From a virus, in the IMG/VR virus record IMGVR_UViG_3300017767_000125, positions 1 through 24,606 of that record: DNA of 24,606 bases. The stretch is one strand, 5' to 3'. Position 1 is the stretch's first letter; each line of letters starts with the position of its first letter. Shown piece after piece: positions 2,992 through 24,581 of this stretch. The position numbers and the translations under genes are program-made. The notes below the pieces were generated by a model. The model was not told where the DNA came from. It saw only the letters and a list, made by a program, of their open reading frames with translations, and did not search any database.

Positions 2992-3254
2992 AAACAACAG
3001 AAAGAGTAGAACAGGCATTTAAAAGGGTTAAAGAATTGCTTAATTTAGTTGCTGATTGGACTAAGAACCCAAAAGAAGACGAATTAACAAAAGAATTTAA
3101 AGATAAGAAACAAAAAATGATAGATGATCTACATAATCAATTAGGTGCTTTAAGTGATCGTTATATGTTTAACCATAAATCAGAATTTGCTACTAAGGAA
3201 TATTTAGTAGAGTATGAAGCACTAAAAAAGAAAATTCAAGAATTAGAAAAATGA
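2988..3254 (+). CDS. Helical hypothetical protein, 88 aa
   Basis: Start chosen at ATG 2988 because it forms the ATGA overlap with the previous stop seen at many junctions here; an in-frame ATG at 2976 would add four residues (MGDE). The protein is almost entirely charged helix (KTTERVEQAFKRVKELLNLV at the start, a KKKIQELEK end) with a YMFNHK turn near the middle. No family is recognised. It ends in ATGA with the HNH endonuclease gene, which itself looks inserted. In an ancestor it may have been directly followed by the Hjc-like gene. Confidence 0.7.
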   Translation: MKTTERVEQAFKRVKELLNLVADWTKNPKEDELTKEFKDKKQKMIDDLHNQLGALSDRYMFNHKSEFATKEYLVEYEALKKKIQELEK

Positions 3255-3754
3255 AAAAAAATAAACTACCACTACCATCTTTAGATATTATTCAAAATAA
3301 ATTTACATATCATATAGATGGATATTTAATATGGAATATAGATGTTATAAATAACCGGATTAAAAAGGGTAATAAAGTTAAAGGTACTTTACATAAAAGC
3401 GGTAATTTAATTTATAAATTTATTGGTGTAAACGGAAAACAATATGCAGAACATAGAATAATTTATTATTTATGCAAAAATGATAATCCAACTGATTTTG
3501 ATATAGATCATATAAATAAAAACACATTAGATAATAGGATTGATAATTTGAGAAAAGTTACAACAAAAGAAAATAATAATAACAAAAATTTATATAAAAA
3601 TAATAAAACTGGTTATTCTGGAATTTATAAAGATTTAGATGGCAAATATAAAGCTAATGTTTTTATTAATAATAAATCATATACGTGTGGTACACATAGG
3701 ACAATTGAACTTGCAATAAATGCACAAAAAAGGAAACAAAAGGAGTTATTATGA
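3251..3754 (+). CDS. HNH homing-type endonuclease with AP2 domain
   Basis: A 167-aa protein with an HNH core: His68 in AEHR, then Asp86-His87 in DIDHINKNTLDNRIDNLR with the asparagines of the motif, then KENNNNK. It is followed by an AP2-like DNA-binding domain at about residues 120-156 (TGYSGIYKD, KYKANVFINNKSYTCGTH). This HNH + AP2 architecture is typical of free-standing phage homing endonucleases that cut a cognate locus and spread by repair. The gene is visibly richer in A/T and in Asn/Lys/Ile codons than its neighbours, a sign of separate origin. It sits between two ATGA junctions, so its insertion left translational coupling intact on both sides. Confidence 0.85.
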   Translation: MKKNKLPLPSLDIIQNKFTYHIDGYLIWNIDVINNRIKKGNKVKGTLHKSGNLIYKFIGVNGKQYAEHRIIYYLCKNDNPTDFDIDHINKNTLDNRIDNLRKVTTKENNNNKNLYKNNKTGYSGIYKDLDGKYKANVFINNKSYTCGTHRTIELAINAQKRKQKELL

Positions 3755-19400: not shown

Positions 19401-19835
19401 ATCTGTATTTGTAATTTGTCTAGTAACAGAAGCAGAAGTGGTCACAGTAACAGCAACAGCAGTTGGTGATCTGGTTTCTGCTGGTATTCCAGGTAGTGCT
19501 GTTTGACTAGACGTGCCAAAACGAGTATCAAACCCAACATCTGCAAAATTAAAATCTACTGCTTGTGGATTAGTACTATCGGCACTAGCTTCTAAAACTG
19601 GAGTGTCATCTAAAAATACATCTTTCTTTGCCGCTTCTAAATAAGCAGCAGTTCCCTTTGTTCTTCCCTCTTTTGAGGCTGTTGCAAAACCTTCAATTTC
19701 TCCTTCAGATATTAAATCTTGAATAGTAGCAAAACTTCTACTATGTAAAGTATCAGGAGCACGGTAAGGTGCTGGTGGTGGTTTGGGAGCAAAGAAACCT
19801 CCAGATCCTTTAATAAGTTTAGGTTCGTCTGTCAT
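16434..19835 (-). CDS. J: Tail tip attachment protein, lambda gpJ-like
   Basis: A 1133-aa protein, essentially the length of lambda J. The N-terminus has KGSGGFFAPKPPPAPYRAPD, then TLHSRSFATIQDLISEGEIE and KKDVFLDDTPVLEA, the hallmark start of tail-tip J proteins. Central parts include YRIRGIKVRIP, PAMCLLDLLTNTRYGLGNHI, a FAAVNDLAGVMRCMPIWSAG motif and GVVVRPGAIIEINDP. Later parts are Fn3-like beta domains and an FRVTLQTVDSAQNM stretch. It forms the central hub of the tail tip and starts the host interaction. It is coupled upstream to I by ATGA, and the order I-J plus neighbouring K, L and M confirms the call. The C-terminal 200 residues are the likely species-specific part. Confidence 0.93.
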   Translation of the reverse strand: MTDEPKLIKGSGGFFAPKPPPAPYRAPDTLHSRSFATIQDLISEGEIEGFATASKEGRTKGTAAYLEAAKKDVFLDDTPVLEASADSTNPQAVDFNFADVGFDTRFGTSSQTALPGIPAETRSPTAVAVTVTTSASVTRQITNTDVNAVIVTLTWPQIQVAEDDGDVRGDTIEYKIQVQYNSGGYSDTISTSVSGRTADAYARDHRINITGSFPVDIRVVRVTADSTESSRVNAFQFTSFQEVIDNSSTYDNSAYAALRLDSKQFNRIPRRAYRIRGIKVRIPGAGASGTGTPQVIKNQAEADALNLGSLSSFGFIYYPPGYIFNGTMGAAVYTNCPAMCLLDLLTNTRYGLGNHIVDSNLDLFSFVHASKYANALVSDLLNSQEARFSCNVNIQSPKEAFAAVNDLAGVMRCMPIWSAGGITLSQDESKSASYLFNLANVGESGFSYSGSSLKQRHNVISVSYFNMDSKEIDFELVEDSTSITKVGRTVKQVKAFACTSRGQAIRLGRAILFAEQNESETITFSTSIDSGVVVRPGAIIEINDPVRAGARRGGRVVAATTTTITIDAEAQTTLPSLTDSPTISVILSDGSVESKSISNISGAVLTVSSAFTSAPNVNSPYLISSTTLQTQLFRVIQVEEQDDINYIITALSYVDGKYDFIDDPTVSLPTRTISLLNQRAPSPSFLNVAEKTVVINNIARSKLIISWQAVTGVTQYLVNYKYEDTNFVSQVVFSTDFELLDSKKGTYTIQVLSYNQALFLSKNPTETTFNAIGTTALPENVSGLTIEPVNEQLARIRFDQATAIDVLHGGRVYIRHSNLTGGSATFQAAQDIIQAVPGNATEALVPALAGTYLVKFQDDGGRFSDTEASITVSLVDVIDSITIKTDREDTDSPPFNNTTSSLFTNTQYDSTKGGLILSNPASNLTGTYDFVDTLDLGGTFSLTLKRHFQGVGYYTGDLFDNRTDLIDTWTDFDGTVANEANARISVRTTTDDPSSSPTYTDFNDFANGVFKGRGFQFRVTLQTVDSAQNMNLQQAGYTASMPSRVEQSAVIASGAGAKAVTFAAPFFVGTSALGNLNSFLPSVNISPQNMATGDYFVLSGISGTGFTVHFKDSSNGSIDRDFTYSAAGFGKGG

Positions 19836-20449
19836 GCTTCTACCTGATTAGTGTCTATTGCTGCTGAAATTACAACAGAACCCGTAAATATTTCTCCGTA
19901 CACTATTGGTACAGGTGTGCCAGCCCTTGATGTGTTTTGCACTCCACTAAAATTAAAGGATAACTGTGGATCTTCTTCTGAATTTTCCAGTTTAGGTAAC
20001 GGAAATAACAATTCAGATACTCCAGTTAATAGTAAAGAAGCACCAACATAAGCTGATCCTTTGGAAATCATACCAACTTTGCCTAGCCCAATAAATTTAC
20101 CTCCCTCAAAAGCAGACATTAATCCACCTCCAGCTCCAGGAAAATTTATAAATGATAAACCGATCAATGCTGCACCTAATAATATTTTTCCAAACCCTTT
20201 ACCAGCACCACTAATTACAGGAATAAAATGTATATCTTGTTTACCCACAGGATAATGTATTTCTTCCTCTCCAATATCACTATCGCCTACTTTAATTTGG
20301 TAATATTTTGGGTTCATGTAAGACTCTATGCCTGGAAAATTATAAACTAAAAAACTTACAGCTTTCCCTACTGTTTCAGCTTTTACCTCGAACTCTTTAT
20401 GTCCAACAAATTTTGCTAATTCTCCATATAGTTTTACTTTACGAAACAT
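19832..20449 (-). CDS. I: Tail assembly protein, lambda gpI-like
   Basis: A 205-aa protein. The N-terminal 75 residues are a ubiquitin-like beta-grasp (KLYGELAKFVGHKEFEVKAE; DIHFIPVISG). The centre is a glycine-rich hydrophobic stretch (GKGFGKILLGAALIGLSFIN and GSAYVGASLLLTGVSELLF). The C-terminus has the very typical TSRAGTPVPIVYGEIFTGS. This is the gpI family (PF06805), needed for tail-tip assembly. It starts 11 bases before the end of K, and its end overlaps the J start by ATGA. Confidence 0.88.
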   Translation of the reverse strand: MFRKVKLYGELAKFVGHKEFEVKAETVGKAVSFLVYNFPGIESYMNPKYYQIKVGDSDIGEEEIHYPVGKQDIHFIPVISGAGKGFGKILLGAALIGLSFINFPGAGGGLMSAFEGGKFIGLGKVGMISKGSAYVGASLLLTGVSELLFPLPKLENSEEDPQLSFNFSGVQNTSRAGTPVPIVYGEIFTGSVVISAAIDTNQVEA

Positions 20450-23885: not shown

Positions 23886-23886
23886 A

Positions 23887-24548
23887 TTATTTATCTCTAT
23901 TTAATGCTTGTAATACTGCTGCTTCTAGGATTTGTAATTTTTCTAGCATAGCAACAGTATCTTCTACTAAATACAGTTTAATCATTTCTAAGACAGATGT
24001 ATAGTCTAACCCAATAATTCCACTTATTCCTACACGCCATTGTGTCTGACAACGTAAAAACATTTGTACAGTTTCCCAATTTTGTGGATATACATAATAA
24101 TTATTATCTATTTCTTTTTTTTCTACTTTTATACCTAATACTGCATCATCTTCTGCTGTTTTATCAATGACAGTAGAGCCAACAGCCCAATACTCACCTG
24201 CCCCTATTAGTTTTTTTCAAAAATCTGTTGATTAGATTCCATAAATGCATAACCTACAGCAGTAGCAAAACCTCTAACTTCACATAACTTATTAAGGTTA
24301 GATTTATTAAATTCTACCTGTGTACCATCTGCTGATTCCATATCTTCCCAACCAACTAATATTTCTTTTGTAACATCAATATCTTCAATTTGTTTATCTT
24401 CTACCATTTTTACCATTTCTTTAAATCTTGATTGAGTAATATTTTTAAATAAAGCAGTAAAGACTTCTGTATGTACAGTTCCATCTTTATTTACATTAAC
24501 TTCTACTTTCCATTTATAAGAAGGACTCTGATCTAAAACAAAAGGCAT
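23887..24548 (-). CDS. GT: Tail assembly chaperone G-T fusion made by -1 frameshift
   Basis: Reading G from 24548 and slipping back one base at A AAA AAC (24216-24210) gives a 220-aa product: 113 residues of G and a 107-residue T extension ending at TAA 23889-23887. The extension continues LIGAGEYWAVGS, then NYYVYPQNWETVQMFLRCQ, TQWRVGISGIIGLDYTSVLE and a helical end LEAAVLQALNRDK. The QTQWR...GLDY pattern is a hallmark of gpT/DUF1799-type proteins. The extension has no usable start of its own and would otherwise be a 320-base gap. In lambda the G to G-T ratio controls tail assembly around the tape measure. Confirmation would be by proteomics of lysates. Confidence 0.85.
24207..24548 (-). CDS. 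G: Tail assembly chaperone, lambda gpG-like
   Basis: A 113-aa protein: MPFVLDQSPSYKWKVEVNVN, TVHTEVFTALFKNITQSRFK, VTKEILVGWEDMESADGTQV, and a C-terminal helix with LNKLCEVRGFATAVGYAFME. This is the gpG-like layout: a K-W-K-V strand, an F-x-A-x-F-K strand, V-G-W-x-D and D-G-x-x-V. It ends GFATAVGYAF...QIFEKN, and the last two sense codons AAA AAC form part of the slippery heptamer before TAA TAG. It is the first tail gene in the window, preceded by the GGGTATACCC palindrome 23 bases upstream. Confidence 0.85.
   Translation of the reverse strand: MPFVLDQSPSYKWKVEVNVNKDGTVHTEVFTALFKNITQSRFKEMVKMVEDKQIEDIDVTKEILVGWEDMESADGTQVEFNKSNLNKLCEVRGFATAVGYAFMESNQQIFEKN
24210..24216 (-). promoter_or_regulatory. 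Programmed -1 frameshift slippery site A AAA AAC
   Basis: On the minus strand seven A's are followed by C in the frame A AAA AAC, an X XXY YYZ heptamer, immediately before tandem stops TAA TAG. Zero-frame reading ends G; a -1 slip enters the open T frame (CTA ATA GGG GCA ...). I see no convincing stimulatory hairpin by eye in the next 60 bases. Confidence 0.85.
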
Positions 24549-24571
24549 AAAAATCTAGTAACTATTTACTA

Positions 24572-24581
24572 GGGTATACCC
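24572..24581. promoter_or_regulatory. GGGTATACCC palindrome upstream of tail operon
   Basis: The third perfect copy of the 10-bp palindrome, 23 bases upstream of the G start. A weak minus-strand -35 (TTGTCT at 24599-24594) lies just upstream but no good -10 is evident at 16-18 bp. It is likely an operator/activator site for the late tail operon, or a promoter that needs a factor. Confidence 0.5.

Follow-up and report, generated by a model that had tools for sequence, protein, structure and literature searches.

A probable -1 ribosomal frameshift at A AAA AAC, followed by a covarying hairpin, in the tail-assembly chaperone locus of an uncultured virus

In phage lambda, genes G and T lie between the major tail protein and the tape measure, and a -1 shift near the end of G yields a product with a C-terminal T extension, the arrangement that we describe here for an uncultured virus. 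Both gpG and gpGT of lambda bind the tape measure protein, the T part binds the tail tube subunit, and the two products are made at a ratio of ~30:1 (PMC5009743). The heptamer of lambda is G_GGA_AAG and that of our locus A_AAA_AAC. The original prediction for this locus had pointed to that difference, which holds, yet A_AAA_AAC had already been reported at other phage G-T sites. The literature places it at the tail chaperones of Caulobacter phage phiCbK, the Acinetobacter phages Loki and IME_AB3 and the haloarchaeal virus HCTV-2, and perhaps also at that of phage Dragolir; the first four carry the same heptamer in the same gene in other phage groups. In Loki the heptamer directly adjoins the stop codon, as in our locus, and in the passages on the frameshift sites of phiCbK and Loki a downstream structure goes unmentioned. 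In E. coli A_AAA_AAC is far less shift-prone than A_AAA_AAG (PMC5009743).

We analysed the entire IMG/VR record IMGVR_UViG_3300017767_000125 (24,606 bases, hereafter the window), which is probably a fragment and whose source phage is probably marine. The right half encodes, on its minus strand, a tail module that belongs to a long-tailed phage; the order is gpG-like gene, 321-base gap, tape measure and then genes related to lambda M, L, K, I and J. We conclude that the first part of this module is almost certainly a two-product tail-assembly chaperone locus, the second product of which arises by -1 ribosomal frameshifting at A AAA AAC (Table 1). The window ends short of the gene that precedes G, and one relative (L009) that extends further upstream has a Phage_tube_2 tail tube protein gene directly before G and a capsid protein gene among those preceding it. 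Window and relative combined give the order major tail protein, G, T and tape measure, which is that of lambda V, G, T and H, the upstream part being taken from the relative. For the gpI-like protein (19832-20449, minus strand), the closest record in the phage collection is the single-cell marine virus AG-345-A17 (57% identity). A single scan of genome contigs for a host gave a distant Thioalkalivibrio match (39%) as its sole result.

Table 1. Positions of the chaperone locus features in the window and the basis of each assignment
Feature	Position	Strand	Basis
gpG-like tail assembly chaperone, 113 aa, 0 frame, ending ...IFEKN-stop	24207-24548	-	ORF, Phage_TAC_4, phrog_569
Slippery heptamer A AAA AAC, in phase with gpG	24210-24216	-	sequence, relatives
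TGA closing the -1 frame right before the heptamer	24217-24219	-	sequence
Tandem 0-frame stops TAA (24209-24207) and TAG (24206-24204)	24204-24209	-	sequence
Hairpin	24169-24202	-	covariation, RNAalifold consensus, synonymous-codon null
Putative T extension via -1 shift, 107 codons (LIGAGEYW...LNRDK) and stop	23887-24210	-	DUF1799, phrog_680, dN/dS
Tail tape measure protein, 548 aa	22239-23885	-	Tape_meas_lam_C, E=4.2e-22

At the end of the gpG-like frame the minus strand reads ...CAG ATT TTT GAA AAA AAC TAA TAG GGG..., and the layout that the original prediction had described is present: the 113-aa ORF carries the heptamer in phase, the tandem stops stand right behind the heptamer, and an overlapping -1 frame of 107 codons has no usable start. 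It had also stated that an ordinary gene caller would leave about 320 bases empty here, and we counted 321 (23886-24206) without a normal ORF. The TGA just before the heptamer was absent from that description. Because it blocks the -1 frame at this point, the 0 and -1 frames overlap by exactly 7 nt and a shift is possible only on the seven bases A AAA AAC. From its first codon, CTA (24210), the -1 frame remains open to a last sense codon ending at 23890 and closes with TAA (23889-23887), 1 base before the tape measure gene begins. The first ATG, GTG or TTG in it is an ATG at codon 52 of 109, counted from the heptamer, and the T frame is thus without a start of its own. An open frame of 107 codons would arise by chance at window composition with a probability of ~5e-4, a figure that is much weaker evidence than the conservation seen among relatives. 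Of 20 window ORFs with an open -1 frame past the stop, two have an in-phase XXXYYYZ in the overlap. The second is a gene ending at 3254 on the plus strand, with A AAA AAG in the -1 overlap (3245-3262) beside an ATGA overlap with the next gene, and this site is probably a product of chance plus translational coupling.

Profile searches with the 107-residue extension, which had been proposed as a check, matched DUF1799 (PF08809; 56.4 bits with a cut-off of 26, E=3.6e-15) and phrog_680 (E=8e-22). The PHROGs label of the latter, tape measure protein, probably derives from neighbouring genes, because the actual tape measure is the next gene. The original prediction had likened the product to gpT and DUF1799 proteins together, and here only the DUF1799 part stood. 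Lambda gpT belongs to a separate Pfam family, PF06223 (Phage_tail_T), which gpT itself matched as a control and for which the extension gave no match in the profile search; hhalign of the T alignment with lambda gpT returned a probability of 0.2%. Homology of T to lambda gpT was therefore rejected, since profile comparison shows no detectable sequence relation. The gpG-like protein matches phrog_569 (E=3.8e-15) and, only just above the curated cut-off (21.3 versus 21.1 bits), the family PF08748 Phage_TAC_4 of tail assembly chaperones (E=3.4e-4). Searches of solved structures with T and G, by sequence or fold, gave nothing significant, and in a fold comparison of gpG the HK97-type chaperone 2OB9 (Z 2.8, rmsd 5.8 over 87 aligned residues) scored on a par with unrelated chains.

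Relatives were drawn from IMG/VR and phage records. All 80 close relatives, 65-100% identical in T, have A AAA AAC in phase, as do 361 of 364 usable loci, GC-rich viruses included (184 distinct sequences; several of the 364 loci are overlapping stretches of the same contig). In 168 of the 184 distinct sequences a stop is the very next codon after the heptamer. One of the three exceptions (L236) has G GGA AAC, which also fits X_XXY_YYZ and is the variant reported for phage Colossus; a second (L216) has G GGA AAA / A AAA AAA. The third is a short contig (L209, 1-360) with the start of G fused to the end of T through an in-frame deletion that has removed the frameshift site; the deletion sits near a short AAAGTAGA repeat, and the fusion is either a natural variant or an assembly error. 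The hidden T gene that had been predicted from the window is supported by this conservation together with the DUF1799 match and the gene order, and among the 364 loci we saw no relative in which the heptamer was lost and T had a start of its own.

The closest cultured relatives of G and T are the Synechococcus phages S-CBS1, S-CBS3 and S-LBS1, which have the identical A AAA AAC and are 33-48% identical to the window in T. The records of all three (L083, L085 and L084, respectively) carry T as a separate truncated CDS with the frameshift unannotated, and the G of S-LBS1 bears the name ABC transporter ATPase. In the cultured Stenotrophomonas phage Silvanus, the locus is already marked as frameshifted: a joined CDS is annotated as 'tape measure chaperone' with a note that cites the phage T1 frameshift product. 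Silvanus shares the A AAA AAC with a stop right behind it and the DUF1799 extension, and its T is only 32% identical.

These relatives bear directly on a rival account of the window, in which G and T were once one frame and a base was lost or gained by sequencing error or gene decay. Homopolymers are indeed error-prone and the record comes from an uncultured virus. Such an account is nevertheless already refuted by the relatives, and its probability is practically nil: the same arrangement in two frames is found across 184 distinct sequences, drawn from many independent assemblies, as well as in the cultured phages S-CBS1, S-CBS3, S-LBS1 and Silvanus, and both frames are under purifying selection. 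Compared with the window, the dN/dS of relatives is 0.28 for G and has a median of 0.37 for T, the relatives having been picked by T similarity, which lowers dN in T. Values of ~0.3 and ~0.4 indicate that G and T are both translated as genes. Relatives show zero synonymous change in the last three codons of G. Almost no synonymous change was also seen, across 68 sequences, in T codons 15-21 counted from CTA (GATAAAACAGCAGAAGATGAT, window 24145-24165, minus strand), and the supported hairpin does not explain this conservation of GATAAAACAGCAGAAGATGAT, which lies beyond it.

Slippage of the RNA polymerase on the A run, with no shift by the ribosome, would also join the two frames, and the window does hold a run of 7 A. 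Transcriptional slippage usually needs runs of 9 or more, whereas the run here is short and variable, 157 of the 184 distinct sequences having 6 A, 22 having 7 and 5 having 8. Conservation instead falls on the in-phase heptamer, including its C, and on the stop next to it, and the GGGAAAC of L236 dispenses with a long homopolymer altogether. We consider polymerase slippage very unlikely. Even less credit is due to separate translation of T, in which ribosomes would use an internal start through coupling or by reinitiating beyond the G stop, as might be suggested by the separate shorter T gene that GenBank gives the three Synechococcus phages. The first in-frame ATG, GTG or TTG lies about as far into T in most close relatives as in the window, an ATG occurs within the first 12 codons in only 3 of 184 distinct sequences, and conserved residues such as AGEYW stand upstream of any start. 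Separate translation would moreover leave the conservation of the heptamer unexplained.

A hairpin begins 7 nt past the heptamer (GGCAGgtGAGT - 12-nt loop - GCTCtaCTGTC), formed in the window by 5 bp, a 2x2 internal loop and 4 bp; the spacer falls inside the usually quoted 5-9 nt (PMC8211752). In the alignment of the window clade (A3, 37 distinct sequences), columns 15-25 pair with columns 38-48, with 91% of cells paired and changes on both sides at three pairs. None of 500 shuffles reached its covariation score, sliding the hairpin partner by 1-3 columns as a control abolished the covariation, and an RNAalifold consensus supports the structure. One of the covarying pairs links the synonymous third positions of GAA/GAG (Glu) and GGT/GGC (Gly), for which no protein constraint accounts, and by parsimony its two sides changed together three times, no intermediate with a broken pair being seen. 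In one relative (L055), GGCAGGTG:CAACTGTC is swapped for GGCTGCTG:CAGCAGTC and full pairing is restored.

Against protein-preserving shuffles, the 34-nt hairpin, a segment selected after inspection, had z=-1.85 (p=0.03) in the window and a mean z=-2.16 over 25 clade variants. A 60-nt fold of the region was not unusually stable against synonymous shuffles (z=-0.19) in L002, which has the same T protein and junction sequence as the window. Hairpins start 6-8 nt past the heptamer in most representatives of a distant GC-rich group, and these weigh less because Ala-Ala and Gly-Gly codons pair readily there. A comparison with Rfam gave no matching family. An H-type pseudoknot between the loop GCTGTT and a downstream AACAGC was rejected, as its covariation was equalled by 251 of 500 shuffles. 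A conserved Shine-Dalgarno-like stimulator before the heptamer was likewise rejected, AGGA occurring within 20 nt in only 11 of 81 sequences and not in the window.

A separate element lies past the tail tube gene and ahead of G, where GGGTNTACCC stands 22-25 nt before the G ATG in 73 of the 74 relatives whose sequence reaches far enough upstream. A second imperfect inverted repeat usually comes next, CTAGTAAATAGTTACTAG in the window, the region corresponding to 24555-24581 (minus strand). The element could be an operator, a promoter-proximal element or a translational element. At the G start itself we found no Shine-Dalgarno-like sequence.

We propose that most ribosomes would read G to its stop and release the 113-aa gpG, while a minority would slip back one base as the tRNA-Lys and tRNA-Asn move together from A_AAA_AAC to AAA_AAA. 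Reading would then continue as CTA ATA GGG... past the 0-frame stop and yield a 220-aa G-T fusion (...IFEKN-LIGAGEYW...) with the predicted junction peptide NLIGAGEYWAVGSTVIDK. The hairpin would meet the ribosome at its mRNA entrance and is a probable stimulator of this slip. On the model of lambda, gpG and the fusion would bind the tape measure protein, the T part would recruit the tail tube protein, and the share of the fusion relative to gpG is likely to be low. We further suggest that A AAA AAC, stop, 7-nt spacer and hairpin may form a compact element common to the family of DUF1799 phages, in which the hairpin, kept by compensatory synonymous changes, tunes the ratio of G to G-T and the adjacent stop is part of the signal; on this broader proposal we are evenly divided. 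A hidden gene in a widespread uncultured virus group gains a probable function and a correct gene structure, and the extreme conservation of heptamer, adjacent stop and hairpin provides a natural alignment for studying how stop and hairpin affect shifting at A_AAA_AAC.

The frameshifted tail chaperone is an established phenomenon, and the locus described here, which agrees with the G/G-T type in every sequence feature compared, is a well-supported further case. The proteins of lambda belong to PF06894 and PF06223 and those of the window to PF08748 and PF08809, with T domains that have no detectable sequence relation. Unlike lambda, the window has a stop codon directly after the heptamer and then a covarying hairpin, which is a new observation and a modest addition to what is known of these systems.
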